DNA of 40,408 nucleotides from assembly GCA_003153275.1 (NCBI GenBank), contig PLXX01000089.1, positions 156 to 40,563 of the forward strand. The letters run 5' to 3'. Shown piece by piece: positions 12,096-26,039 of the stretch. The stretch comes from Nitrospiraceae bacterium. GTDB lineage: Bacteria > Nitrospirota > Thermodesulfovibrionia > Thermodesulfovibrionales > UBA6898. The notes under the pieces were generated by a model. The model searched no databases. It was not told where the DNA came from and was given only the letters and a program-made list of their open reading frames with translations. Positions within the stretch are counted from its first letter, which is position 1; every line of letters starts with the position of its first letter. Both the position numbers and the translations under genes were made by a program.

Positions 12096-12596
12096 TTAAG
12101 TTTTCTTTAAAACAACGCCTGAAAGAAGGAAATAGGCCCGAGTCTTAAAAAAAACCCTGGCAGCGATCGAAAAATTCATACATCGGTAAAATACGGAATT
12201 CATATCAATATGAGTGGTCTTGCCTGACTGCGTTGGTCTTTCGATCCGCAGGACCTTGCCCAGCACGTTGTCTTCGCGTATCTCCGCATCAAAGGACATC
12301 AGCGCATCCCCCCTGGTCTGGAGGATAATGTCATCCCCAGTACTCCCTCTCTTTCTGACAATTCTGTGGAGTATTGGAAAACCATTGGGATTTTCAAAAA
12401 AAATAAGGTCGCCTATCCGCAAGTCCGAGCAGGGGACTTTCTTCACGATAACGACTTCACCTCCCTTAAGAAAAGGGACCATGCTCTTACCTGTCACTTT
12501 AACACGGAGACTAAGTCCCCTTCTTAATATCTCGCCGAAAAAGGCCGTCACCTCGGTCTTTTCTAAAGAGGCCGTGTCAGTCAGACGCTGTAACAT
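12096..12596 (-). CDS. S24/S26-type signal-peptidase-like serine protease, last gene of the RiPP-type operon
   Basis: The protein (166 residues from the chosen start) shows the signal peptidase I/SipW/LexA fold signature: VTGKSMVPFL with candidate nucleophile Ser38, then DLIFFENPN and LHRIV with His77, and TRGDAL later. A Ser-His arrangement, with no obvious general-base lysine at the bacterial position, resembles archaeal or SipW-type signal peptidases. No clear N-terminal transmembrane helix is present. I chose ATG 12596, which is one base after the HprK-like stop (TAA-T-ATG), implying translational coupling; an ORF extended to 12662 would overlap that gene by 65 bases. In this cluster it could remove a leader or a signal sequence, but the substrate is not known. 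Confidence 0.8.
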   Translation of the reverse strand: MLQRLTDTASLEKTEVTAFFGEILRRGLSLRVKVTGKSMVPFLKGGEVVIVKKVPCSDLRIGDLIFFENPNGFPILHRIVRKRGSTGDDIILQTRGDALMSFDAEIREDNVLGKVLRIERPTQSGKTTHIDMNSVFYRCMNFSIAARVFFKTRAYFLLSGVVLKKT

Positions 12597-12597
12597 A

Positions 12598-13485
12598 TTA
12601 TGCTGAGACAAATTTTTCAATCGTATCAACCACCTCTTTACCCGGTTTGAACTGTAACACATATGAAGGTACTTTGGAGATCAACTCACTGACAAGCGAA
12701 AGTGCCCCTGAAATGGAGTCCCTGTCGTACCACGGCACTGACAGTACCGACATGAATCTCCTTAACGCCTCTGCCTCATCTATTTGCTGAATAACGTTAT
12801 CGGTACTCTTCTCAAGGAAAAAAACCCCTTTAAGCGATGTCGATTTATTCACTGCGATTCCTGCATCACCCGGCCACGGCGTGCCGTAGATCATAAAGGC
12901 ATCGGCCTTTTTTCTGACGATTATCCTGTCGTCACTCAGGAGCATGATATTATCCCCTCCTGACAGACTTTGTGAGATAGTTGACTTTCCGGCCCCGGAG
13001 AATCCCGGGAAGAGATACCCTCTGCCATCGATATCTATCCCGGCGGAATGGGCTATCACGCCCTCATGTTTGACGAGGTATTGCATAAGAAGGATCTGGT
13101 CGAGCGGATAAGGAGCGGGACTGTAAGCTCTGCCATCAGCATCTATAAAATCACCGTTGCAGAACAGTTCAACCTTGCTAATGTCATGGCTTACGCGAGC
13201 AGTCATGTAGGGCTCTCCTGGTTCCTCCCCGTGAAACTTGAGAAGATAGTTGTCTCCCTCCCGAAATAAAGACCACGACTCTCCGGTCTCAAAACAATCT
13301 TTCAAATTCTTTATATTGTGTATCGGACCGAAGGAGACATCAATGCAGATTTCGGCAGACCCGGCATCTCCTGATATTTCATTGTAAAGAAATTCACGAT
13401 AGGAAGGGTCAGGCAGAAAAAGTTCGATTCCCTGCGGGCAGTATATCGCCAGCCGCACATCGCCTATAGATAACACATGCCCCAC
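12598..13485 (-). CDS. HPr kinase-like (HprK-related) P-loop protein of a RiPP-type cluster
   Basis: A 295-residue protein with the C-terminal kinase half of HPr kinase/phosphorylase: Walker A GFSGAGKST (161-169), LLSDDRIIV with a paired aspartate, and GTPWPGDAGIA, which resembles the region following the HprK signature. The N-terminal 140 residues are specific to this subgroup. Proteins of this kind recur beside PqqD-like and radical SAM or lasso-peptide genes rather than phosphotransferase genes; the one acting in paeninodin biosynthesis phosphorylates the C-terminal serine of its precursor. The precursor here also ends in serine. Translation begins at GTG 13485, 15 bp after the peptide gene; a GTG three codons later is an alternative. 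Confidence 0.82.
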   Translation of the reverse strand: MGHVLSIGDVRLAIYCPQGIELFLPDPSYREFLYNEISGDAGSAEICIDVSFGPIHNIKNLKDCFETGESWSLFREGDNYLLKFHGEEPGEPYMTARVSHDISKVELFCNGDFIDADGRAYSPAPYPLDQILLMQYLVKHEGVIAHSAGIDIDGRGYLFPGFSGAGKSTISQSLSGGDNIMLLSDDRIIVRKKADAFMIYGTPWPGDAGIAVNKSTSLKGVFFLEKSTDNVIQQIDEAEALRRFMSVLSVPWYDRDSISGALSLVSELISKVPSYVLQFKPGKEVVDTIEKFVSA

Positions 13486-13500
13486 CGAATGAAGGTTCTG

Positions 13501-13659
13501 TTAGGAGCCGCCGTTTGAACTACATTTACGTGCATTGCAGGGAGTCCCACCCGGAGCGCTTCTAATGTTTGACTTGCAACCTGCAGCCATGACCTCATCG
13601 GCCTTAAGTTCAATCGTCCTTAGTTGGGGTTTCGTATATTGCTTTTTCTTTATCTCCAT
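13501..13659 (-). CDS. Putative RiPP precursor peptide (52 residues), small gene
   Basis: This ATG-started frame begins on the base after the radical SAM stop codon and has an excellent ribosome binding site, AAAGGAGG five bases upstream. It encodes a basic, charged leader (MEIKKKQY, then KPQLRTIELKADEVMAAG) and a small core with Cys28, Cys41 and Cys46, the stretch SAPGGTPC and the ending CSSNGGS. A leader of the form KPxLxxIxLxxxEV followed by a small-residue junction and a Cys-containing core is a recurrent design of precursors handled by PqqD-like and radical SAM/SPASM proteins. Its position between the modifying enzyme and the kinase-like gene supports this. It has no signal peptide of the Sec type. 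Product structure and activity are unknown. Confidence 0.82.
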   Translation of the reverse strand: MEIKKKQYTKPQLRTIELKADEVMAAGCKSNIRSAPGGTPCNARKCSSNGGS

Positions 13660-14751
13660 CTAAGCCTCCTTTGCTAGCAGTTCCTTTTTCATTATATCAT
13701 TATACCGCGCAGTTCCTGAACTGCAAAGATACTCCGAAGCACGATTTTCATCGCCGTTTTCGAGTAAAAAGAAGGCGGGGCAATATCCGCATAGTGCTAT
13801 CTTCTCGCAGCCGACACAACGGTTTGAAGGGTCAGTCTTCTTTTCATTAAGGTTCGTCATGGAGTTCCATCCTTCATCAAAGCCACTGGATGAAAGGTCA
13901 AAACAGCCCTCACTAATCATCAGGCATGGCATAAGGAATCCTGACGCATCGATATGGAAGTTCGTGACACCGGCGCCGCAGCAGTAAATCCTGTCGCTGA
14001 GCCTGAACTCACCATGTGAGTTCAGGAATTTTCTCCAGCTTTTGATCCTTTCGGGATCAGACATATCGAAGGCCACCGCATCTTCGGTCGGGATCCTCAG
14101 TGCAAGCGGCATGCGGTCACCATCAAAACGCGGAAATATGTCCGAATCAAAACGGAACTTTGCCCCGTACTGCTTCGCTATGTTTTCGATCTCGAAAAAC
14201 TCATGCAGGTTAAGAGACATAAGCACTGTCTTCAGACCGGTTTCAATGCCTCGGTCAAGAAGACCCTCAATACCTCTTATACATGAAGCATATGATCCCA
14301 GGACACCGGTTACAGCTTCGTATGTCCCGGCCGTTGCGCCGTAAAGACTGATCTCGACAGATTGTGGAGGAAGGTCCGAGAAGAGATCAAGGATCTCTTC
14401 ATTTACAAGCGTTCCGTTTGTAAAGATCGTGATAAGCATACCATTTTTTTTAGCCCGCTCATAAACCTTCCCGAAGTCAGGCCTCAGTAAGGGTTCACCC
14501 CCGGTAATAAGCAGACTGAGACACCCAGCATCACGGATTTCATCCATTAGTGCGAGGACCTTTTCCGTTCCCATTTCAGGTCTTGCGGCTGCGGAGCCGG
14601 TTCTCTCCGACCCGAGATAACAATGGGCACATCTCAGGTTACACCGCTTCGTTAATTCGAGGCCACCCGAGACAGGGATCCTGTTTAACTCCATCTTCGT
14701 ATTGAAATATCTCAGATACTCAAGCACACTTGCTGAAGAGGTGCATTCCAT
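13660..14751 (-). CDS. Radical SAM/SPASM peptide-modifying enzyme
   Basis: A 363-residue radical SAM enzyme. CNLRCAHC (Cys37, Cys41, Cys44) binds the SAM-cleaving [4Fe-4S] cluster, and TGGEPLLRPDF is the GGEP motif contacting SAM. The C-terminus has a SPASM arrangement: CCGAG, then PCLMISEGC, CVGCEKIALCGYC and a final Cys near SEYLC, enough to hold auxiliary iron-sulphur clusters. Such enzymes make thioether, carbon-carbon or epimer modifications in ribosomal peptides. The start ATG overlaps the PqqD stop by one base (TGATG), and the putative substrate gene starts on the base after this gene's stop. The reaction type cannot be read from the sequence. Confidence 0.92.
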   Translation of the reverse strand: MECTSSASVLEYLRYFNTKMELNRIPVSGGLELTKRCNLRCAHCYLGSERTGSAAARPEMGTEKVLALMDEIRDAGCLSLLITGGEPLLRPDFGKVYERAKKNGMLITIFTNGTLVNEEILDLFSDLPPQSVEISLYGATAGTYEAVTGVLGSYASCIRGIEGLLDRGIETGLKTVLMSLNLHEFFEIENIAKQYGAKFRFDSDIFPRFDGDRMPLALRIPTEDAVAFDMSDPERIKSWRKFLNSHGEFRLSDRIYCCGAGVTNFHIDASGFLMPCLMISEGCFDLSSSGFDEGWNSMTNLNEKKTDPSNRCVGCEKIALCGYCPAFFLLENGDENRASEYLCSSGTARYNDIMKKELLAKEA

Positions 14752-15074
14752 CAGGCGCCGGCTTCCTCTATGAGACCGGCTCCGAGGAGTTCCGCAATGA
14801 ATTCCCGGAGGTCCGACGCAGCATCTGCCCTTTCAACCTCAAAGTCTTCGATGACCTTCGCAAGAATAACCTGGAGGTCCTGCCTCCCGTCGATCTGGCT
14901 CCAGAGAAAAGCCGCTACCGGGCTGAGAGAAAAGATCCTCTGCATGTCGGCAAGGTTTCCCCTCACAGGCACGAGGATCGTCTCACCGGCGATGTCCCTT
15001 GCCACGATTTCACCGCGTTTCCTGAATACGCCCTCCAGGTCGCCTGTCTCCCTTTTTTCGGTAAACAGTGACAT
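14751..15074 (-). CDS. PqqD-like peptide-recognition (RRE) protein
   Basis: The 107-residue protein has the PqqD fold pattern: a beta-rich start (GEIVARDIAGETILVPV), LSPVAAFLWSQIDG as the conserved helix after the beta segment, and a helical C-terminus with FIAELLGAGLIEE. PqqD proteins are stand-alone RiPP recognition elements that bind the leader and deliver the peptide to the radical SAM partner. The gene starts 6 bp after the stop of the giant secreted protein and overlaps the radical SAM gene by one base. It is probably the chaperone that binds the leader of the peptide at 13501-13659. Confidence 0.88.
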   Translation of the reverse strand: MSLFTEKRETGDLEGVFRKRGEIVARDIAGETILVPVRGNLADMQRIFSLSPVAAFLWSQIDGRQDLQVILAKVIEDFEVERADAASDLREFIAELLGAGLIEEAGA

Positions 15075-15080
15075 GATCGC

Positions 15081-18000
15081 CTATTTAAGCCTCAAAGCAG
15101 GGTTTCTAAGCCTCAAAGCGGGGTCTCCGAGGATATTTAATAGGTTCAGCTCATAGGAGGCCCTGCCTGCGGCCTTGTAAGCAGCCATAGCCTTTCTGAC
15201 CGCATCCCCCATCGTTACCACATCGGGCTGGTAGACTGCCGTATAGAAGCCCTCGCCAAGTATTTTGGCATCGGCATTGTATGACCAGTCAGACGGAGCA
15301 TAGGAAGATACAATGCCACCGCCGCTTTTTACTATAAGGGCCTCCATCAGAGAGTCAAACCCGGGCAAAGCATACATACCTGAAGAGCACGTCAGTGCAG
15401 TCATCAAGGGATAAATGCTATTCGAGAGCCATGCTGCATCGTCCATCGTAAGCAACCCGCCGTCCGAAAAACGATCGAGAGCGCCATGACCCAGATAGTT
15501 GATAAATTTGGCACCAGCGGACATACCGTCAAAAAGGGCTGCCCTTGCCTGGGCAAGCGTATAATCAGACAGGTATATCTTCTGGACAGGATGACCCGTG
15601 AGTATTTGCGCGATATCGTTACTGTCTTGCGGGAAGTCTCCGCCACCGTCAGGGTTGTCTGCAAGAAGTATGATCTCGTTCTGACTCGTTGCTTCAAAGG
15701 CAATGATCTTGTTTAGTACGGTCTGAAGTTCCGTGGAACTCAGCACCGGAATTCTGCCTATGATGATCTCAGGTATGTTGTCCGCGTTAAAATCACCCAG
15801 GACATTGTCTGACGGGGAAAGACCCCAAGGAGATCCGACCATCAACGCCGGCACGAGATTGCCTCCATAGCCGATGTTATTCTTATAGTCGTAGGTACCG
15901 CTTCCTACAAGCACGGCATAGCCCGGTTTCGTCTGCCAGTTGTTATAGGCATACTGGAGGAAACTCCTTATGGCATTTGGATCATACATGCCAAAGTTGA
16001 ATGTATCCATAATGTCTTCGACCAGGGCTACCTTCACCGTCAACCCTTGTGATCTTCTGTAGTTCGCAAGGAGCGTTGCCCCGTCCTGTAATACCGCAGG
16101 AGTGATCACGATATAATCCGCAGCATTGTTCGTGCTTTTCAGGTCTGAAGGCAGGGCCGCAATCGCAGTGGCCTTTTGCACCAACGGAGACACAAAAGCT
16201 AAATACGATGCATTGCTGGCGGCAGGGTAGAACATCACTGCATAATTGCCAGCCTGCACGCTGATCGCCGTTGCTGTAATCAGCTTCGGCTTTAGAGTAT
16301 CTGAGATGTCGAAGACCGAAATATACGGCGATGTAAACCCTTGAATACTTATACTGGAGCTTCCTTCCGATTTGAAGCTCAGAAGGTTATTGGCCGCCTC
16401 AAGCTTCCTCGTATACTCAATATCAAAGGAATCTATAAGCAGGAAACTATAGGAGATATCGGCATCAAGCACGCCCTTCACACTAAGTGTGTTATCACCT
16501 TCCATAAGGAGTCCCTGATCGACATTCACAACAACAGTATGAGGATCAGTGCCAGTCCATGTTTCATCTGCGACTTGTGTCCCATTAAGACTTATCTGGG
16601 CGTGGCTGCGATCAGTGGTTATGGACTGCATCTTCACACTGATTTGAGCGGTACTGGCGGAAGTTGATACTGAACTCACCTTAAAACTGAAATCCTTACT
16701 GTCGTAAGGCGAATAACCAGCGATAACATAATCCCAGAACCAATAGTCGGAGTTCGGATCACTCGTAACGGTCGGGTATGCAAGAAGATCCTGCTCAAAA
16801 TGCTGAGTGTCGGTAAAGGAATTCTTTAGCCTCCCTGTCAGAACCGCTTTGCTCCCATCGACAGATGCCATCTGAAGTCCAGAACCATTGTTCAGCCAGT
16901 ATATGTTCTCATTTGTGTATATGCTATTGACGGCCGCACCATAGAAGAAAATTCCGCTATTATCGTCGGAAGGCATATAAGAGACCTGCCCGTTGCCTGT
17001 GGACAAGGCAAAGAGACCGTCTTTTATCATCTGCTGCACAGTCTGAACGGGTATGTTAAGCATTGCGGCGATGTCCACAGAGTCTATGTAATAAACATTG
17101 TTCTCAGAGACCGTGACCTTTACGGAAGTGCCTGTCAGGCTGGCTATGCGCAGTCTGGCCTGACTCTGTTCAGCCTGGGCAGAGGCCAATCTTGCCACTG
17201 TATCCGGAGAAACTGCACGGGCCGTTCTGCTAAAGGTGCTTGACACCGACTGGAAGGCCAGTCCCGAAGTTGCCGAGACATTGCGGACCGTTGTTGCCCC
17301 ATTTCCCGTGATCGTGATAATTGCAGTGCCGTCAGCGGCAATCTGCTTCACTATTTGGCCGGTATTGGAACCGAGGTCAACCTGGTACGGCCCGTAACTT
17401 ATAAGATTACCTTTGGAGGTGGCCTCAATCAGTTTGTAGATCTGCTTGCCATAAGGAACAGCCGTTTCATCGACCAACCGGTAAAACCCACCTGAAGGAG
17501 ACAGGACAAGTCCGGGAAGAAGTTTGTTGTTCAGACGGACATATGTACCGGTCTTCTCGTCATACCTCTCTACGTAGAAACCCACGGTATCATGTTCTGA
17601 AACTGTTTCCCATTCGGCAATAACCTGGCCTCCTTCTACATGGACTCCGCCACTGGAGAACATGATACGGGTTGGGGTGAAAGTGGCGCAACTCTGGTCA
17701 TTTGTTGCATTTGTATCCGAAGGCACCGAAGACGTCAGTACCGCGCAGTTCTGGGTCAGATCACTGCCTATGACAGTTGCAGTGATAGAATGAGTGACAG
17801 AACCGTTTGCAGCGATACTTCCAATAGACCAGAGGCCGGTTTGATTATTGTAGGTGCCGCTGCCGGTGTCCGACCGCCAGCTTAACTGAGAGGGCAGGGC
17901 ATCGGTTACCGTGGCCGAAGTAATGGTAGTCGATCCAACATTAGTAACCGTTATCAAATAGGTGATACCGCAGGTGCCTATATCACAGGGGTTGTCAATC

Positions 18001-21000
18001 GAGCTTATTACCTTTGTCACACTAAGATCAGTTGTTCCCTGGATCGGGTTCGTCACAGACGCAGCCTTTGGATGTGGGGACTGGGTACTCGTCACAGTTG
18101 CGATGTTAGAGATCTGTGTGACACTTGGATCAAGAGAGCTGTTCACCGTGACACGGTAGGTGATCGTCAGAATTTGGTTCTGCTTCAGGGTAAAGCCGTC
18201 ACCAGCAGCTACCAGATAATAAGGTGAATTGGACGGATCCCCATAGGTCAGGTCCGGATAGGTGCCCCCAGGTATATTGTCCTTTGTCACAACCGGAATG
18301 GTGGTAGTTGCAACCGTGCTGTTGGCTACATATGTGGTATTGGCCGGAACCGGGTCGGTAACGGCAATTCCCGTCTGCTGGGTTGCGGAAGTGTTCGTAA
18401 CCGTAACGGTATAGGTAATCTGCTGCCCTGCGGCCACCGCTCCGGAGGGGTTCGCCGTCTTCGTTATGGTAAAGGTCCCTACACCGTTGTAATAGCCGAA
18501 GTTCAGGTTCTGAATAAAGGTGTTGAGACCGGTACCGCTGACCGTAAGCGGATCGCTTGCAGTTGTGCGAGTCAAACCACTTAGGACCGACTGAGTCCCG
18601 TCTACATAGACGAAGTATGTACCTGGTGCGGAAGGCGCAGCAAAGGCATAATTACCGTTTGCATCGGTCGTTTTAGTATCTATCAGTGTATCCGTGAGCT
18701 CGAAAGTGCCATTCCCGGTGTCTTGATACAACTTCACAGTTACACTTGATATGCCGGTCTCTCCAGAATTAATCACCGCATTGCTGTTGAAATCATTCCA
18801 TACCGTGCCGCTCAGCCCATAAGACGATGGGCCAAAGCCGAAGTTGGCATTGAGATAACTGTTATTGAGATTCAGCAACACCACCGTCATCTGTGCGCCA
18901 GGTGCGGTTGGGCCGGTCTGGTCATCGGTTGTGGTAAGGGTAAGCCCGTTTAAGGCGGTCTGCCCGTAGTCGACGTTTACAAAGAACCTGCCGGCCTGTG
19001 ACACCTGGAACATGTAATCACCGTTTGCGTCGGTAGTCTTGGTATCGATCAGCTGATCGACCGAGGGGTCGAAGATACCGTCACCGTTTGTGTCTATATA
19101 AAGCTTAACGGTTACGTTGGGGATCCCCGCTTCGCCTGTATCATACAAACCATTTTTATTGGCATCTAGCCATACCCTGTACCCGATTCTGCCAGGGGCG
19201 TTGTAACCAAAATTGGTTCCGTAAACACTGGAGTTGGAGATCGTAACGGACCGTGAGCCGGTCTGTGCCGATGGGGTAGTCCCTGTAAATCCGGCCAGCT
19301 TCCCGTCGGCGTCTTCTATCTTGACCGTATAGCTGCCGTTAGGAAGACCGGTAAAACTGAAATTACCGTTTGGATCGCTGGTTGTCACCGCAACGACCTT
19401 GCCGGCACTGAGGAGTTTCACGGTAACGCCGCTTATGCCCGGTTCACCCGAATCGACTGCCCCGCTGCCGTTTTGATCAAACCATACCCTGTCGTTTATT
19501 GAAAACAGCGAGGCATTATAAAAACCAAAGTCCATATACATAATGCTGTCACCAGAGGCTACGGTTATCGGGCCGCCTGTTTTGCTGCCGACGCTCTGGT
19601 TCCCTGTTGTCACCGTATAGCCGGTCAGAATATTTCCGGTGTCGGCCTTAACGATATAGGTCCCCGGAGCTACCCCGGTAAAGAGGTACGTGCCAAAGGC
19701 GTTGGTGGTTGTAGTGGCGACAAGTACGTTGCCCGGGCTGGTCAGAAGCTGCATGGTAACACCATTAAGACCGGCTTCGCCGGGGTCCTGAAGGCCATTG
19801 CTGTTGGCGTCGCTCCAGACATAGTTTCCTATGATCGCACTGACGCTGCTATTTTTATACCCGAAGTTGACATTGGAAAACACCTCCTGGCTGGTTATGG
19901 CCTTGGAGGCACTCGGGTTGACATTGTTGATTGTAATCGTCAGGCCCGCAGGTAACGTAGTCTCGTCAACATGAACTTTATAGGTCCCGGCAGGCAGGCC
20001 TGTAAATATATATTTGCCGTCGGTGCCTGTGAGCGTCTCGGTATAGACAAGACCGTTATTGTTTTGTTCCAGCCATACCCTTATATTTGACAGGCCAGGC
20101 TCTCCATAATCAACGAAACCGTTTATAGTTGTATCAAGCCAGACCAGGCCGTCTATTGACCCGCCGGTACTGACAGTGTCTATTGTGGTCGAAGAAGAAG
20201 GCGGGGCCTTCTCAAAGCTGGTTGCAGTTGCGATATTGACTATGCGCGTCTCATTTACAGGGTTGTTGACCAGCACATTATATGTCACGGTGAGTGTCTC
20301 GCCAGCAGCAAGTGCAAAGCCATCACCCGGAACAACGAGACTTGGCAGGACCCCGTTTAACAGGTCGGCATAGGTCCCCCCAGAAATATTATCTTTTGTT
20401 ACATTAGTCACTTCATTTGTCTTGATCCCCACATTGTCTACGTAGAAGTAGTCACCTGCGTTTGCGTAGCCGCTGGATACTCTGAAACGCACTGTCGTGG
20501 TTGCCGAGATGTAAGTTGAAATATCATAGCTCTTGGAGCCGGAAGTCTCTCCGACGACATTTGTGAAGGAAGTGCTATCGATAGTGGTCCAGGACGTGCC
20601 GCCGTTGCTCGACATCTCAACCACTATTGCGTCCGTGGCAACGACTGTGGGGCTGGTGCGATAATTGAAGCTCAAAGTTGCAGATGCATAGTTCTTGCCG
20701 GTAACTCCGGTCGTGAGGTTTACAGTCCTCGCCGCAGTTGATCCGGCGGCAGTGAGGGCCAACGTTCCATTTGTTACCTGGACTGTACCGGCGGTAATCC
20801 AATTGCCTGCCCAACTAGACGGCCCATCGTTGTTACTGTATAAAAGAGCATTGAACTTGTCCATCACGGAAGTCAGCATCGGGCCTGTAACGGTAGTACT
20901 GTTTGGCACATACGTAGTGCCGGCAGGCAGAGGGTCGGTCAACTGTATCCCCGTCTGCGGTGTGGATGACGTATTGGTGACCGTTACGGTATAGGTGATC

Positions 21001-24000
21001 GTATCCCCAGGCTGCACGCCGCGACCGTTCTTGCTTGAAGTCTTGGTTGTTTGAAGGACACCAGCCTGCACAAGGTTCGTTACAGTATTTAAGAAGATTT
21101 CCGATACAGAAGAGACCTGGGCATTGTTAGTCACAAAGCTGGTGCCAAGAGAAAGGCGAGTATTTACAGTAGCCTGGTAAACGACGTAAATATCCTGCCC
21201 GGGCACAAGCGTTGAGACGACACCGGGTACAAGGTTGAACCCGCCCTCATCAAGAGGAAACCGCGTGGCAGGAGAGGTATTGTCCGAGACAGGGTTACCG
21301 TTGACGGTTGTCGTGTTGGCAACATAGGTCAAATTAGCATCCATTGTGTCAAGCAGATTTACAGTCGTTATCGCCATTATGCCGCTATTATGCACCCTGA
21401 TCGTATATTGCAGCAGTTCCCCGGGGTCTAGTCCCCCGTTGTTATTATAATCTCCTATCAGCGCGGCTGTCTTATAAGCCACAAGCGAAGGATACGGAAG
21501 AACGGCCGTACCAAGGTCGAGTTCCGTAGGCTGATTTGGGGAGGAGGAAGCGCCATCCTGTCCCCATGCGGCCGCTATCCTCGTATTGTCAACGGTATAA
21601 ATTCTGTATCCGGTATGATCGTAGGAACCGGCAGGCCCAGGTGAAAATATCCTCTGGGACTGAAGGGCTGCAATAGAGTAAGAGACATCATATTTGTTTC
21701 CCTTCGGATCTGTATTGGGGCCTTTCGTCGGGTCACCGCTATAGTTGACGTAGATCGTTGTACTGGCAACAGGCGTCACCCATACGGGATTGGCGTCATG
21801 CCCCTTGTCTGTCGCGCCAGGAGACCAGCCGACGATTACCGACGGTGTAAGCATATTCTCAGGGATAAGATTAAAGCCCCAGTTGTGGACCGTGGCATTA
21901 ATATCTATCGCGGCAAACCCATAAAAGTTTTCGCCTCCCGCGCTCCAGACTTTTACACCCGTGAGTGGGTCTGTTGTCGTAGGAGACAAGGGGAGCAGAA
22001 TCATCACGGTCTGTTTGGAATTCACCGTCTGAGAACCGGGACATCCCACAGTTCCGGTCATACAGGCCACATTGACCGTTATCGTACCGGGATTAGGATT
22101 ATAGAGGAATATGTTGTTGTTGACCTGATAACCCGAGCGAGTGCCATTCACTTGTTCCATATTGGTGGAGACAGGACAATAGTATGTGTTTCCAATTTTA
22201 TCTATGGGAAGCAGGCTGTAAAGACGCCCGTCATAGGCAGAACCCGGTGTAGCCGTCAACATATCAACCTGAACAGTGCCGCCAGTAGCAGTAACGTTTG
22301 CCCCGACCTTTATCCCTTCTACATAAAGGGTCTGTCCTTCATTCAATGTTTGTGTAACGTTGACCGAAAGATCAGGGTTCGTCACAGTCACCGAGGTACC
22401 ATCCTGGTGGGCCATAATTGAGAGCGCAGTATAATTGAATGAAACCTGGCCGAAGTCTATACCCACAGGAACCTGGAAACTGCCGCCCCATTTGCTCGTT
22501 TCCCAGACTTCGACGGCGCCTGCAAGCTGAGCCCCCACAAGGTAAGGTGCTCCGACAGGCCAGAAGGCCCTTGTCACCACAAGCTGCTGGGTCGCGCTGA
22601 TCTTGTCGCCACCATCGAAGAACATTGTCCCCTGGTCCCTTACGCCACCCGGAACTGGGATATCGGATTGAAGAGTGATAACCCTTCCGGCATTTATCCT
22701 GTCACAATCGCAGTTCGTGGCTGAAACGCAAGTCGGTGGTCCGGTCATGCCGACAGAGCATCCGGGAGGAGCGCCATTGGTGATATCGCCGTCTCCCCAT
22801 ATCTGTGTCGTGCTCTGCACAGGGTTGGCAATGTCAGCCTCGTATCCGTCTTCCCATTGGTCGTAATATATTAGTGTGCCGTCGAAGGTGGCGGTGATCG
22901 ATATGACGGAACGTACCGTGTCGGATTCACTGCTCGGATCGGACTGCGCCCTCGCGTAGAGTCTGAACTGCGGTTCTATTATCGGCACATAATACGTCTG
23001 GACAATAGATCTTACCACCACAGGATTAACAGTCGTGTAAGAGAACTGGTAGGGGCTCGCCATAGTGTTTCCGGACACATCGCTTACGCCTGTGGATACA
23101 GTCACGGTGTACGGCGTATTGTTGTGCTGCGCGCTTGTGCCGAATACGGCCTGGCTGCCCGAACATGATAACATTGTCCAGCCGTCTGCGTTTATCGTTA
23201 TGTTCGTTGTGTTGACCGTTGCGCAGTTGATATTTTCATTCCAGTTGATCGTTACACTTGAATTGAGCGCAACGCCCGTTGAACCGCTTGTCGGCATGGT
23301 GGTGCTTACGGAAGGAGCGAGGGTGACCGAAAAGATTCCGGTGCCCGTTCCTGCAAGACTACCGTCATTGTTATTTACTATGACATCTCTCGCTCCTATG
23401 GCTGCGCTGGCCGAAATCGTAATCTTTGCAGTAAGATGTGTTGCGTCGACATAGGTTGTACTGATAACGTTTATGCCTGTGCCGCTGAAAGTCACGGCCG
23501 CTCCACTTACGAAGTTATTGCCGTTGATCGTGACATTCAGGTTTGTTGCTCCCTGACCCAGACTGCTCGGACTTGTTGATGTCACTTTTAAAAAGACCCA
23601 GTTGACATTATTGCCGCCATTATTATTCGTGCCGTTGTTTGCGTTAACCGCCGTGCCGCCGGTCGCATCGGAAAAAGACGGTGAAACATAGGATATCGAT
23701 TGGGTTGCCGGTGCGTGAAGGAGCCATGCAGTGCCTGCAGTGGGCTGCAAAGTCAAAAGATTTCCTAAAGCGCCTGTTAAGGTTAAAGAATTTGAGACTG
23801 TCTGAAGCGCGCCGCTCGCCAAGGAAACCGTTCTTCCGCCCCCGGTGATTGCCAATCCATACCACACGTTTACGCTGTTTATGGTTTGGACGCCTGCACC
23901 GTTGAATGTCACCGTGCCGGCGCGTGCGTTAAAACCTGTGGCGCCCCCCGGCGTATTGGTCCAATTGCCCTTGACGTTCAGGGCATAGTTGCTTGCGCTG

Positions 24001-26039
24001 ACATCCAGCAGCGTTCCTGCGGAAATATTCAGATTGCCGTTGACTGTTGTTGCTCCGCCCAGGGTCTTTATTCCGACCCCTGAAATAGTAAGATTTTGAT
24101 ATGGGGGTGTTTGAGAGACTGTCTGCGCAACGCCCGACGCATACTCAACCGTTGTGCCTGCGGAAATATTCATTGTGCCAAAAGCAGGAAAAGTAGTCGC
24201 CGCACCGACCGACCCAAGCTTGAATGTGCCCGAGGTCAGATTGAGCGTCCCTGCTGAGGTTACCTGAAGGCCGCCATCGCTGAAAACGCTGTTTGCCGTC
24301 ACATCGCCGATTGTGAGAGTTGTTACCGCAGGCACAGCGGCGCCAAGTGTTACTCCCGCTGCATTATTAATTTTAAGTGTTGCGTAAGCCGTACCGAGCG
24401 CTGTTTGGGCGATTGTACCGTTATAGTTGACTGTGTTTCCGGCAGCGTTTGCGGTCAAAGTGGTAATCCCGGAAGTGCCGCCGATATTGAGAGTTGCACT
24501 ATTAGTTAAAGTCCCTGCGCCCGCCAGCGCAGTTCCAACCGTTAATGTCCCGGTGTTTGTGTACGTTCCACTAACTGTGACGCTTTGTATCAAAATAGGG
24601 TTTATTCCGCTTATGGTCTTTGCTGCTCCCGAAAAAGTATGCACACCTGTGCTGGCAGTGTAAGTTCCATTATTCGTAAGATTCGAACCAAACACAAGCT
24701 GGGCAGCAGCAGTCTCTGTTATAGCGCCGCCGGTATTGATTGTTACGTCGCCTGTAAAGGTCTTGGTCCCCGTGACGTTAGTTATTTGCAACGTCCCGCT
24801 CGCTCCATCCCCAACGATCGTCGTGCCTGTTACGGTAAATGCATAGGCCCCACCAACGCTCAATGTCGTTCCATCATGAATAAGTAGATTGCCCGACATG
24901 ACCCTGGCTGCCCCCTCAGTCCATGTCTTTGTTCCCGAACCGGAAGTGCCTAAATAAGAATAGGCAACGTCTATTACTGTCTGACCGCCTGCGCCGGTGT
25001 AATTGACCGTGTTTCCGACAGCGCCTACAGTAAGAGTGGTAATAGTAGGGGTAAGATCGATGATATTAAGCGTGCTTGCGGCGGTAGAGTTATTAAAATT
25101 GGTGATTGTGCCTGAATTGGTAAGGTTAACTATGCCGCCGGTGCCGTTGGTAATGCCGGTAATTGCGCCTGACCCTTGGAGATTAAGTGTGCCGGTGTTG
25201 GTAAAATTGGCAAGGGCAGTGGAAATTGCGCCCACGCCGGTGATGGTTGCTGTTCCTGAATTGGCAAGAGTGGTAATAGAGGAAGTCCCGCCAATATTGA
25301 GAGTTGCACTATTAGTTAAAGTCCCTGCGCCCGCCAGAGCAGTTCCAACCGTTAATGTCCCGGTGTTTGTGTAAGTCCCGTTAATCGTTACGTATGAAAT
25401 CGATGTTACAGTTGTCCCGCTGAGTGTCTTGGCTGCACCAGTAAAGGTATGCACTGCCGTCGCGTTATTTTGGGCAGTGAAAGTTGTCGCATTGTTTGTT
25501 AAGTTACCGCCAAAACTGAAACTAGCAACAGCCCCAGTAGCAGTTTCATTCCATACGGCGCCACTATTGAGCGTAACGTTACCGGTGAACGTCATGAGAC
25601 GCGAGGTTCCGTTGGTAGAGCCGAAGTTTATCGTGCCGGTTATATTTGTGGCACCAGTAACGGTAAATACACGCCACATTGTAAGCGTAGCTCCACTGTT
25701 GATAGTGAGAGCTGCGCACGTTATTGTGCCGCTGGTCGTAACTGCGCCAGCGCCAGTTGTTGCAATGATTACGGTGTCACCCGCAACTGGCGGAATATTG
25801 CCAACCCATGTTCCATTTGTTGCCCAATCACCACCAGCTGCCGTGCTGGTTATAGTTGCTGCCTGGGCCTCCTGTGGCCCGAACCATCCCCCGAGCATGA
25901 AAACACTCAACAGCATGGCGAAGATCAGGACCATACTGACCCTCGACATGCGGCTTGCATGATTTATATTCTTGTCGACTGTACCGGATTTATGACGCAG
26001 GCAATCCATTCTTTTTATTGATAGACCTGATTTTTTCAA
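15081..26039 (-). CDS. Giant secreted mosaic protein ending in a gingipain-type C25 cysteine protease
   Basis: A 3652-residue exported protein. The N-terminus has a signal peptide with hydrophobic core MVLIFAMLLSVFML and the likely cleavage after EAQA (about residue 60). Next come about 750 residues of Thr/Gly/Asn-rich short repeats of beta-helix character, an IPT/TIG-like domain (about 818-905), a Big_5-like domain (907-1008), an unassigned 500-residue region (YYVPIIEPQF, IYYDQWEDGYEADI), two DUF11-like domains, a jelly-roll-like insert, five SdrD B-like domains (about 1960-2520), two more DUF11 domains and a fibronectin-like segment. The C25 catalytic domain fills about 3295-3652 with His3518 (LGHGA) and Cys3551 (LTCSSG). 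Their 33-residue spacing equals that of the RgpB dyad. Start is a TTG with AGGGGG nine bases before; ATG at residue 11 is an alternative. Confidence 0.85.
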   Translation of the reverse strand: MKKSGLSIKRMDCLRHKSGTVDKNINHASRMSRVSMVLIFAMLLSVFMLGGWFGPQEAQAATITSTAAGGDWATNGTWVGNIPPVAGDTVIIATTGAGAVTTSGTITCAALTINSGATLTMWRVFTVTGATNITGTINFGSTNGTSRLMTFTGNVTLNSGAVWNETATGAVASFSFGGNLTNNATTFTAQNNATAVHTFTGAAKTLSGTTVTSISYVTINGTYTNTGTLTVGTALAGAGTLTNSATLNIGGTSSITTLANSGTATITGVGAISTALANFTNTGTLNLQGSGAITGITNGTGGIVNLTNSGTITNFNNSTAASTLNIIDLTPTITTLTVGAVGNTVNYTGAGGQTVIDVAYSYLGTSGSGTKTWTEGAARVMSGNLLIHDGTTLSVGGAYAFTVTGTTIVGDGASGTLQITNVTGTKTFTGDVTINTGGAITETAAAQLVFGSNLTNNGTYTASTGVHTFSGAAKTISGINPILIQSVTVSGTYTNTGTLTVGTALAGAGTLTNSATLNIGGTSGITTLTANAAGNTVNYNGTIAQTALGTAYATLKINNAAGVTLGAAVPAVTTLTIGDVTANSVFSDGGLQVTSAGTLNLTSGTFKLGSVGAATTFPAFGTMNISAGTTVEYASGVAQTVSQTPPYQNLTISGVGIKTLGGATTVNGNLNISAGTLLDVSASNYALNVKGNWTNTPGGATGFNARAGTVTFNGAGVQTINSVNVWYGLAITGGGRTVSLASGALQTVSNSLTLTGALGNLLTLQPTAGTAWLLHAPATQSISYVSPSFSDATGGTAVNANNGTNNNGGNNVNWVFLKVTSTSPSSLGQGATNLNVTINGNNFVSGAAVTFSGTGINVISTTYVDATHLTAKITISASAAIGARDVIVNNNDGSLAGTGTGIFSVTLAPSVSTTMPTSGSTGVALNSSVTINWNENINCATVNTTNITINADGWTMLSCSGSQAVFGTSAQHNNTPYTVTVSTGVSDVSGNTMASPYQFSYTTVNPVVVRSIVQTYYVPIIEPQFRLYARAQSDPSSESDTVRSVISITATFDGTLIYYDQWEDGYEADIANPVQSTTQIWGDGDITNGAPPGCSVGMTGPPTCVSATNCDCDRINAGRVITLQSDIPVPGGVRDQGTMFFDGGDKISATQQLVVTRAFWPVGAPYLVGAQLAGAVEVWETSKWGGSFQVPVGIDFGQVSFNYTALSIMAHQDGTSVTVTNPDLSVNVTQTLNEGQTLYVEGIKVGANVTATGGTVQVDMLTATPGSAYDGRLYSLLPIDKIGNTYYCPVSTNMEQVNGTRSGYQVNNNIFLYNPNPGTITVNVACMTGTVGCPGSQTVNSKQTVMILLPLSPTTTDPLTGVKVWSAGGENFYGFAAIDINATVHNWGFNLIPENMLTPSVIVGWSPGATDKGHDANPVWVTPVASTTIYVNYSGDPTKGPNTDPKGNKYDVSYSIAALQSQRIFSPGPAGSYDHTGYRIYTVDNTRIAAAWGQDGASSSPNQPTELDLGTAVLPYPSLVAYKTAALIGDYNNNGGLDPGELLQYTIRVHNSGIMAITTVNLLDTMDANLTYVANTTTVNGNPVSDNTSPATRFPLDEGGFNLVPGVVSTLVPGQDIYVVYQATVNTRLSLGTSFVTNNAQVSSVSEIFLNTVTNLVQAGVLQTTKTSSKNGRGVQPGDTITYTVTVTNTSSTPQTGIQLTDPLPAGTTYVPNSTTVTGPMLTSVMDKFNALLYSNNDGPSSWAGNWITAGTVQVTNGTLALTAAGSTAARTVNLTTGVTGKNYASATLSFNYRTSPTVVATDAIVVEMSSNGGTSWTTIDSTSFTNVVGETSGSKSYDISTYISATTTVRFRVSSGYANAGDYFYVDNVGIKTNEVTNVTKDNISGGTYADLLNGVLPSLVVPGDGFALAAGETLTVTYNVLVNNPVNETRIVNIATATSFEKAPPSSSTTIDTVSTGGSIDGLVWLDTTINGFVDYGEPGLSNIRVWLEQNNNGLVYTETLTGTDGKYIFTGLPAGTYKVHVDETTLPAGLTITINNVNPSASKAITSQEVFSNVNFGYKNSSVSAIIGNYVWSDANSNGLQDPGEAGLNGVTMQLLTSPGNVLVATTTTNAFGTYLFTGVAPGTYIVKADTGNILTGYTVTTGNQSVGSKTGGPITVASGDSIMYMDFGFYNASLFSINDRVWFDQNGSGAVDSGEPGISGVTVKLLSAGKVVAVTTSDPNGNFSFTGLPNGSYTVKIEDADGKLAGFTGTTPSAQTGSRSVTISNSSVYGTNFGYNAPGRIGYRVWLDANKNGLYDTGEAGIPNVTVKLYIDTNGDGIFDPSVDQLIDTKTTDANGDYMFQVSQAGRFFVNVDYGQTALNGLTLTTTDDQTGPTAPGAQMTVVLLNLNNSYLNANFGFGPSSYGLSGTVWNDFNSNAVINSGETGISSVTVKLYQDTGNGTFELTDTLIDTKTTDANGNYAFAAPSAPGTYFVYVDGTQSVLSGLTRTTASDPLTVSGTGLNTFIQNLNFGYYNGVGTFTITKTANPSGAVAAGQQITYTVTVTNTSATQQTGIAVTDPVPANTTYVANSTVATTTIPVVTKDNIPGGTYPDLTYGDPSNSPYYLVAAGDGFTLKQNQILTITYRVTVNSSLDPSVTQISNIATVTSTQSPHPKAASVTNPIQGTTDLSVTKVISSIDNPCDIGTCGITYLITVTNVGSTTITSATVTDALPSQLSWRSDTGSGTYNNQTGLWSIGSIAANGSVTHSITATVIGSDLTQNCAVLTSSVPSDTNATNDQSCATFTPTRIMFSSGGVHVEGGQVIAEWETVSEHDTVGFYVERYDEKTGTYVRLNNKLLPGLVLSPSGGFYRLVDETAVPYGKQIYKLIEATSKGNLISYGPYQVDLGSNTGQIVKQIAADGTAIITITGNGATTVRNVSATSGLAFQSVSSTFSRTARAVSPDTVARLASAQAEQSQARLRIASLTGTSVKVTVSENNVYYIDSVDIAAMLNIPVQTVQQMIKDGLFALSTGNGQVSYMPSDDNSGIFFYGAAVNSIYTNENIYWLNNGSGLQMASVDGSKAVLTGRLKNSFTDTQHFEQDLLAYPTVTSDPNSDYWFWDYVIAGYSPYDSKDFSFKVSSVSTSASTAQISVKMQSITTDRSHAQISLNGTQVADETWTGTDPHTVVVNVDQGLLMEGDNTLSVKGVLDADISYSFLLIDSFDIEYTRKLEAANNLLSFKSEGSSSISIQGFTSPYISVFDISDTLKPKLITATAISVQAGNYAVMFYPAASNASYLAFVSPLVQKATAIAALPSDLKSTNNAADYIVITPAVLQDGATLLANYRRSQGLTVKVALVEDIMDTFNFGMYDPNAIRSFLQYAYNNWQTKPGYAVLVGSGTYDYKNNIGYGGNLVPALMVGSPWGLSPSDNVLGDFNADNIPEIIIGRIPVLSSTELQTVLNKIIAFEATSQNEIILLADNPDGGGDFPQDSNDIAQILTGHPVQKIYLSDYTLAQARAALFDGMSAGAKFINYLGHGALDRFSDGGLLTMDDAAWLSNSIYPLMTALTCSSGMYALPGFDSLMEALIVKSGGGIVSSYAPSDWSYNADAKILGEGFYTAVYQPDVVTMGDAVRKAMAAYKAAGRASYELNLLNILGDPALRLRNPALRLK
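24484..24563. repeat. Internal direct repeat, copy 2 (in-frame, 80 bp)
   Basis: This 80-bp segment matches 25294-25373 with one mismatch that I could see. The copies are 810 bp (270 codons) apart and in frame, encoding the repeated stretch TLTVGTALAGAGTLTNSATL in the beta-helix-like part of the giant protein. Such near-identity points to recent duplication or gene conversion within the gene. Confidence 0.85.
25294..25373. repeat. Internal direct repeat, copy 1 (in-frame, 80 bp)
   Basis: First copy, in coding order, of the 80-bp repeat also present at 24484-24563. It encodes the same stretch nearer the N-terminus of the giant protein. Confidence 0.85.

Follow-up and report, generated by a model that had tools for sequence, protein, structure and literature searches.

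A predicted radical SAM peptide operon in Nitrospirota with a candidate C-terminal serine kinase and an adjoining C25 protease gene

What is made by a compact gene cassette in which a frame for a 52-residue peptide lies between a radical S-adenosylmethionine (SAM) enzyme gene and an HprK-like kinase gene, and which protein does the product act with? We addressed this question in a 40,408-nt stretch of DNA from a Nitrospiraceae bacterium (assembly GCA_003153275.1, contig PLXX01000089.1, positions 156 to 40,563), hereafter the window. Judged from sequence comparison, the operon would make a ribosomally synthesized and post-translationally modified peptide (RiPP) that is guided by a RiPP recognition element (RRE), modified by the radical SAM enzyme and phosphorylated at its C-terminus, with a surface protease as its partner; as a whole, we consider this account moderately probable. 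The initial annotation, which covered positions 12096 to 15074, had taken the genes there for one unit making a modified peptide. That reading is supported and the cassette genes in the interval were right, but it was incomplete: the interval stops at 15074, short of the gene for a peptidase C25 protein with which the operon begins, and neither the conserved C-terminal serine and its connection to the kinase nor the second cassette that this genome carries was noticed.

Operon and precursor peptide

The operon lies on the minus strand and reads, from 5' to 3', giant C25 protein (15081–25949), PqqD-like RRE (14751–15074), radical SAM/SPASM enzyme (13660–14751), precursor peptide (13501–13659), HprK-like kinase (12598–13485, GTG start) and S26-type peptidase (12096–12620). 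The C25 stop and the PqqD start are 6 nt apart, one base at the junction belongs to both the PqqD and the radical SAM gene, and the TAG stop of the radical SAM gene is immediately followed by the ATG of the precursor. The short frame between the radical SAM/SPASM and HprK-like genes stood up in every particular that had been claimed: it runs from ATG 13659 to the stop at 13501, is preceded by a predicted ribosome binding site (AAAGGAGG, 13672–13665) with a 5-nt spacer, and encodes the 52-residue peptide MEIKKKQYTKPQLRTIELKADEVMAAGCKSNIRSAPGGTPCNARKCSSNGGS, in which the reported leader motif and three cysteines are present. The gene overlap, the upstream PqqD gene and the S24/S26-type peptidase gene ending the cassette at 12096 had also been read correctly.

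We searched for the precursor in 101 relatives and, across the phylum, in 396 genomes. A homologue from the same genus shares 61% identity. Differences number 13, 15 and 29 at codon positions 1, 2 and 3, which makes the third position the most variable, and dozens of genomes from about ten phyla carry the frame with the same genes on either side. Because of this homologue, the third-position variation and the recurrence, the frame is confirmed, at the level of sequence, as a real gene beyond chance. In the dN/dS comparison of the closest precursor pair the synonymous sites were saturated, and no NCBIfam or Pfam model matched the precursor.

The frame and its cysteines had been expected to persist in relatives that keep the neighbouring genes, and they do. 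An alignment of 112 distinct precursors contains a shared [Y/W]xxPx[L/V/I] leader motif, which in the window is YTKPQL (residues 8–13, 13621–13638), followed by an acidic stretch that ends mostly in Gly-Cys-Lys or Ala-Cys-Lys. The Gly-Cys-Lys of the window (residues 27–29, 13573–13581) marks the start of a variable core with two further cysteines, usually 4–6 residues apart and 5–6 residues from the end; exactly three cysteines follow the YxxP motif in 94 of the 112. A genetically encoded precursor with a conserved leader and a variable core is what an RRE-dependent RiPP cluster would contain, and wherever the contig extends far enough, RRE and radical SAM genes always accompany the precursors. 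Of the 112, 106 end in Ser and 4 more in Thr; the precursor of the window ends in Ser52 (13504–13506), the proposed phosphorylation site. Although the distance from YxxP to the end varies from 35 to 74 residues, terminal Ser/Thr is kept in 110/112, against a background of Ser in 28 of 353 neighbouring proteins (8%); the profile used to find the frames covered the precursor C-terminus, which biases the terminal-Ser count mildly.

Two variations of the precursor were observed. Two different precursors stand in tandem in each of the cassettes L063, L065, L070, L075, L077 and L080. In L069, L070 and L071, from one other family of the phylum, the precursors are longer, end in RPS or RAS and carry no Lys after the first Cys; these loci hold several radical SAM genes and an HprK-like kinase gene, and a PF14907 nucleotidyltransferase was found in L069, the one scanned for it.

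Predicted modification enzymes

The PqqD-like protein matches PF05402 (E=9.6e-16), as expected for the PqqD-type RRE of an RRE-dependent RiPP cluster and a predicted leader-binding role. Among solved structures its profile is closest to the lasso RRE TbiB1 (E=2.5e-12), with the PqqD of pyrroloquinoline quinone (PQQ) biosynthesis at 1.5e-6. Such RREs are known to recognize YxxP, and lasso RREs are not alone in this (PMC12710340). Since BsfB1, an RRE protein, accelerates its kinase (PMC10368454), the PqqD-like protein could, by analogy, serve both the radical SAM enzyme and the kinase.

The radical SAM/SPASM enzyme (PF04055, 1.5e-21) keeps the CxxxCxxC motif (C37, C41 and C44 invariant in the alignment) and the full SPASM cysteine set (C258, C276, C312, C315, C321, C324 and C343, all invariant). 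Its closest solved relative is the sactisynthase SkfB (2e-31). Thioethers are favoured as the modification because of the full SPASM set and the closeness to SkfB, and a radical SAM enzyme with a SPASM domain beside a Cys-bearing core is the arrangement of sactipeptides and ranthipeptides.

The HprK-like kinase gives weak but consistent matches to the HprK family. Against the HPr kinase/phosphorylase model TIGR00679 it scores 21.6 bits, far from the cut-off of 240, indicating membership of the same fold superfamily only. The predicted structure has the fold of phosphoenolpyruvate carboxykinase (PEPCK) and HprK, with a model pLDDT of 92; a fold search listed PEPCK and HprK and no lasso kinase, an absence that carries no weight. 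The P-loop GFSGAGKST lies at 12979–13005. In the kinase alignment H146, K167 and D185 are invariant and position 186 is Asp or Glu, which corresponds to the His-Lys-Asp-Asp catalytic set of the lasso-precursor kinases PadeK and ThcoK. The residue that such kinases phosphorylate on the precursor is a C-terminal Ser of high conservation, and PsmN has been reported to attach hexoses to it (PMC9266682); the terminal Ser/Thr of the present precursors would provide a substrate of this type.

The S26-type peptidase scores 63.2 bits against TIGR02228 (cut-off 51.85), and Ser60 and His99 (numbering of the 188-aa frame) are invariant, in agreement with the signal peptidase I family and its catalytic Ser. 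Its closest solved relatives are SEC11A/C. The frame is open from ATG 12662; TTG 12620 is the more likely start because it matches the L044 homologue. No N-terminal membrane anchor was seen in the protein. Four loci encode it as a fusion with a PF14907 nucleotidyltransferase, and in the acidobacterial-type loci L142, L147, L148, L150, L152 and L157 it forms the N-terminus of a DUF11/C25-type giant, ahead of a hydrophobic, signal-like segment. Because of these fusions, a cytosolic position is suggested, which would make the enzyme a leader protease and not a signal peptidase. A cut just before the first core Cys is disfavoured, since the preceding residue varies among G, A, S, H, N, F, T, K and M. 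In L138, L149 and L156 the S26-type domain runs into a Wza-like polysaccharide-export protein.

C25 protease

The first gene of the operon encodes a giant secreted protein with a signal peptide, DUF11 and SdrD_B repeats and a C-terminal peptidase C25 (gingipain-type) domain (PF01364, E=3.5e-70). Its frame is open from TTG 26039, and ATG 25949 is the likelier start. Across loci the catalytic His is kept in 62/62 and the Cys in 61/61 domains, as in a genuine C25 peptidase; from the alignment of 62 C25 domains, the invariant active-site Cys codon of the window is at 15387–15389.

The C25 gene adjoins the cassette in 45 of the 63 complete named loci (defined below), mostly upstream of PqqD and in others downstream of HprK, and the majority of the gaps fall in the range from −35 to +60 nt. 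A strong PF01364 match occurs in 19 genomes of the order to which the window belongs; of these, G032 is the only one without the cassette. C25 distances correlate with radical SAM distances at r=0.86, close to the kinase and radical SAM pair (r=0.85), whereas permuted pairs reach at most 0.26. Because of the 6-nt gap, the recurring adjacency and the distance tracking, we count the C25 gene, on this genomic evidence, as a member of the cassette operon. In C25 loci, every one of the 64 precursors whose first core Cys was found has Lys as the next residue, as do 47 of 55 from loci without C25, a pattern compatible with C25 cleavage after Lys and confounded by phylogeny.

Distribution of the cassette

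Named organisms were reached by a search with the kinase alignment, in which the precursor was not a query; it gave 80 loci. Their metagenome-assembled genomes are labelled Nitrospirae, Desulfobacterales and other Deltaproteobacteria, Aminicenantes, Acidobacteria/Vicinamibacteria, Chloroflexi, Planctomycetota, Omnitrophota, CSSED10-310, Verrucomicrobia/Lentisphaerae and WOR-3. The profile found a precursor-like frame in 76 of the 80, a few of them probably spurious overlaps, and RRE, radical SAM, precursor and kinase were all present in 63, the complete named loci. Most loci keep the order PqqD, radical SAM, precursor, HprK and S26. Among named organisms, Nitrospirae bacterium NC_groundwater_1885 is the closest relative.

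A second cassette occurs in the genome of the window, on contig C93, with PqqD, radical SAM, a different precursor ending in CKVCGLALGS, and HprK. Contig C110 of the same genome begins with a C25-S26 pair, which may be the continuation of this cassette. A plasmid search returned only a distant HprK-S26-PqqD trio (NC_022111.1, Prevotella sp. oral taxon 299); because of this trio, an older three-gene module is suggested.

The surroundings differ among lineages. In the Nitrospirota loci L049, L052, L053, L062, L063 and L077, exopolysaccharide export and chain-length genes adjoin the cassette, and small secreted Cys-rich proteins ending in SPSxF or SPASF are encoded beside it at L049:11735, L052:10453, L062:10311, L063:7868 and L077:11127. 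At L205 (G016:C6, 7556–15001) a SynChlorMet-type cassette adjoins one of the present family.

The YxxPxL leader, three Cys and terminal Ser form a motif for finding the family, and the adjoining C25 gene gives an operon rule; both are usable in uncultured Nitrospirota, Desulfobacterota, Acidobacteriota, Aminicenantes and others.

Proposed mechanism and alternative explanations

From its homology and the motif, the PqqD-like protein very probably binds the YxxPxL leader and presents the peptide. The radical SAM/SPASM enzyme would modify the three-Cys core, most likely with thioethers, a step whose chances we put slightly above even. Phosphorylation of the C-terminal Ser hydroxyl by the HprK-like kinase, as by PadeK, ThcoK and SyanK on lasso precursors, appears likely. 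For leader removal by the S26-type peptidase in the cytosol we judge the chances evenly balanced. The exported C25 protease is, with good confidence, a true partner, and we suggest tentatively that, outside the cell, it might cut the peptide behind the conserved Cys-Lys and so trim it.

Several observations weigh against this mechanism. Radical SAM/SPASM enzymes also perform chemistry other than thioether formation, and most cassettes have no dedicated exporter. BsfK, another HprK-like RiPP kinase, modifies Ser3 and not a terminal Ser (PMC10368454), and among ScmC-linked precursors, which serve as a SynChlorMet control, terminal Ser occurs by our reading in one of nine, so that a rule by which an HprK-like RiPP kinase always implies terminal Ser failed. 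BsfK and this control would fit a peptide that is modified while the kinase acts elsewhere, on another residue, on the C25 protein or on another partner, with the Ser kept for radical SAM recognition or receptor fit. We regard that explanation as unlikely, because terminal Ser/Thr persists despite very different core lengths and because it is precisely the terminal Ser that is modified by those HprK homologues of RiPP clusters that have been studied best (PMC9266682). No C25 gene was detected in 18 of the 63 complete named loci, some on contigs that end too early, and the distance tracking is partly due to common descent. If C25 were merely a frequent neighbour, the cassette would make a free secreted signal or antibiotic peptide; some C25-less cassettes do adjoin polysaccharide-export, ABC-2 transporter or nucleotidyltransferase genes, and C25 proteins without a cassette occur in other families of the phylum. 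The operon spacing, the recurrence in many phyla, the S26-C25 fusions, the distance tracking and the near one-to-one presence in the window's order make this explanation still less probable. Finally, the small protein might be an unmodified regulator or structural protein, in keeping with a product that is not known and a precursor that matched no family. The conserved leader with an RRE-type motif, the Cys core of variable length, the tandem copies and the constant company of RRE and radical SAM genes render this very improbable.

Returning to the modified peptide with a C25 partner, its role could be that of a dedicated ligand of the giant protease (an activator, an inhibitor or a phosphoserine-linked covalent adduct). 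The two would form a widespread two-part surface system encoded in one operon, in some lineages beside exopolysaccharide genes. We consider this extension doubtful; if true, the RiPP would control an extracellular protease or matrix and would not be a free antibiotic. The link to C25 makes the functional question testable, namely how a peptide-making operon is tied to a giant surface protease.

Comparison with known systems

The initial annotation knew of no described product with this core, and we found no description of the cassette or its product in the open-licence literature searched. In the RRE-Finder study, some 300 lasso-type RREs with a neighbouring radical SAM gene were put down as false positives of the lasso model (PMC7470986). 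Because of these pairs, part of the present family was probably already counted there in bulk; the precursor, the kinase and the C25 partner are not described in that text. A search with PADLOC for a defence system returned nothing beyond a general resemblance to viperin/radical SAM proteins and weak P-loop matches, and this assignment was rejected.

The nearest named relative is SynChlorMet (NCBIfam TIGR04248–TIGR04251), which likewise has a PqqD-like RRE, the HprK-like ScmC, radical SAM/SPASM enzymes, an S26-type peptidase and precursors with a YxxPxL leader. SynChlorMet differs in its two radical SAM genes, its Gly/Cys-repeat cores and the rarity of terminal Ser noted above; the cassette of the window has one radical SAM gene, against two or three in the SynChlorMet loci L202–L206. 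The window's proteins score 31 bits (cut-off 125) for ScmC, 29 (100) for ScmD, 87.5 (400) for ScmE and 87.4 (400) for ScmF. Membership was rejected on these low scores and the single radical SAM gene.

The phosphorylated lasso peptides (paeninodin with PadeK, ThcoK, SyanK, and pseudomycoidin with PsmK/PsmN) share the YxxP leader, a discrete RRE, the conserved C-terminal Ser, the His-Lys-Asp-Asp kinase homologous to HprK and, in a subset of loci, a nucleotidyltransferase. Unlike them, the cassette has neither a B2 protease nor an adjacent cyclase of the Asn-synthetase type, and instead holds the radical SAM/SPASM enzyme, S26 and C25. The B2 leader protease (PF13471) is absent in 28 of 29 cassette genomes, with one partial match in G405 far from the cassette; the PF00733 cyclase has no match in the window's own genome and elsewhere lies on other contigs or tens of kb off, as at G014:C20. 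A lasso cluster was rejected on these two absences. Sactipeptides such as the sporulation killing factor resemble the cassette in a radical SAM/SPASM enzyme with an RRE and a Cys-bearing core, and SkfB is the closest solved enzyme; they differ from it in the kinase and the C25 partner that the cassette has, and no sactipeptide family cut-off was reached. The system is best described, from its gene content, as a predicted RRE-guided radical SAM RiPP with a lasso-type kinase and a C25 partner, a combination that we did not find described. If this holds, it joins the leader, RRE and kinase toolkit of phosphorylated lasso peptides with radical SAM thioether chemistry, which are usually described apart.

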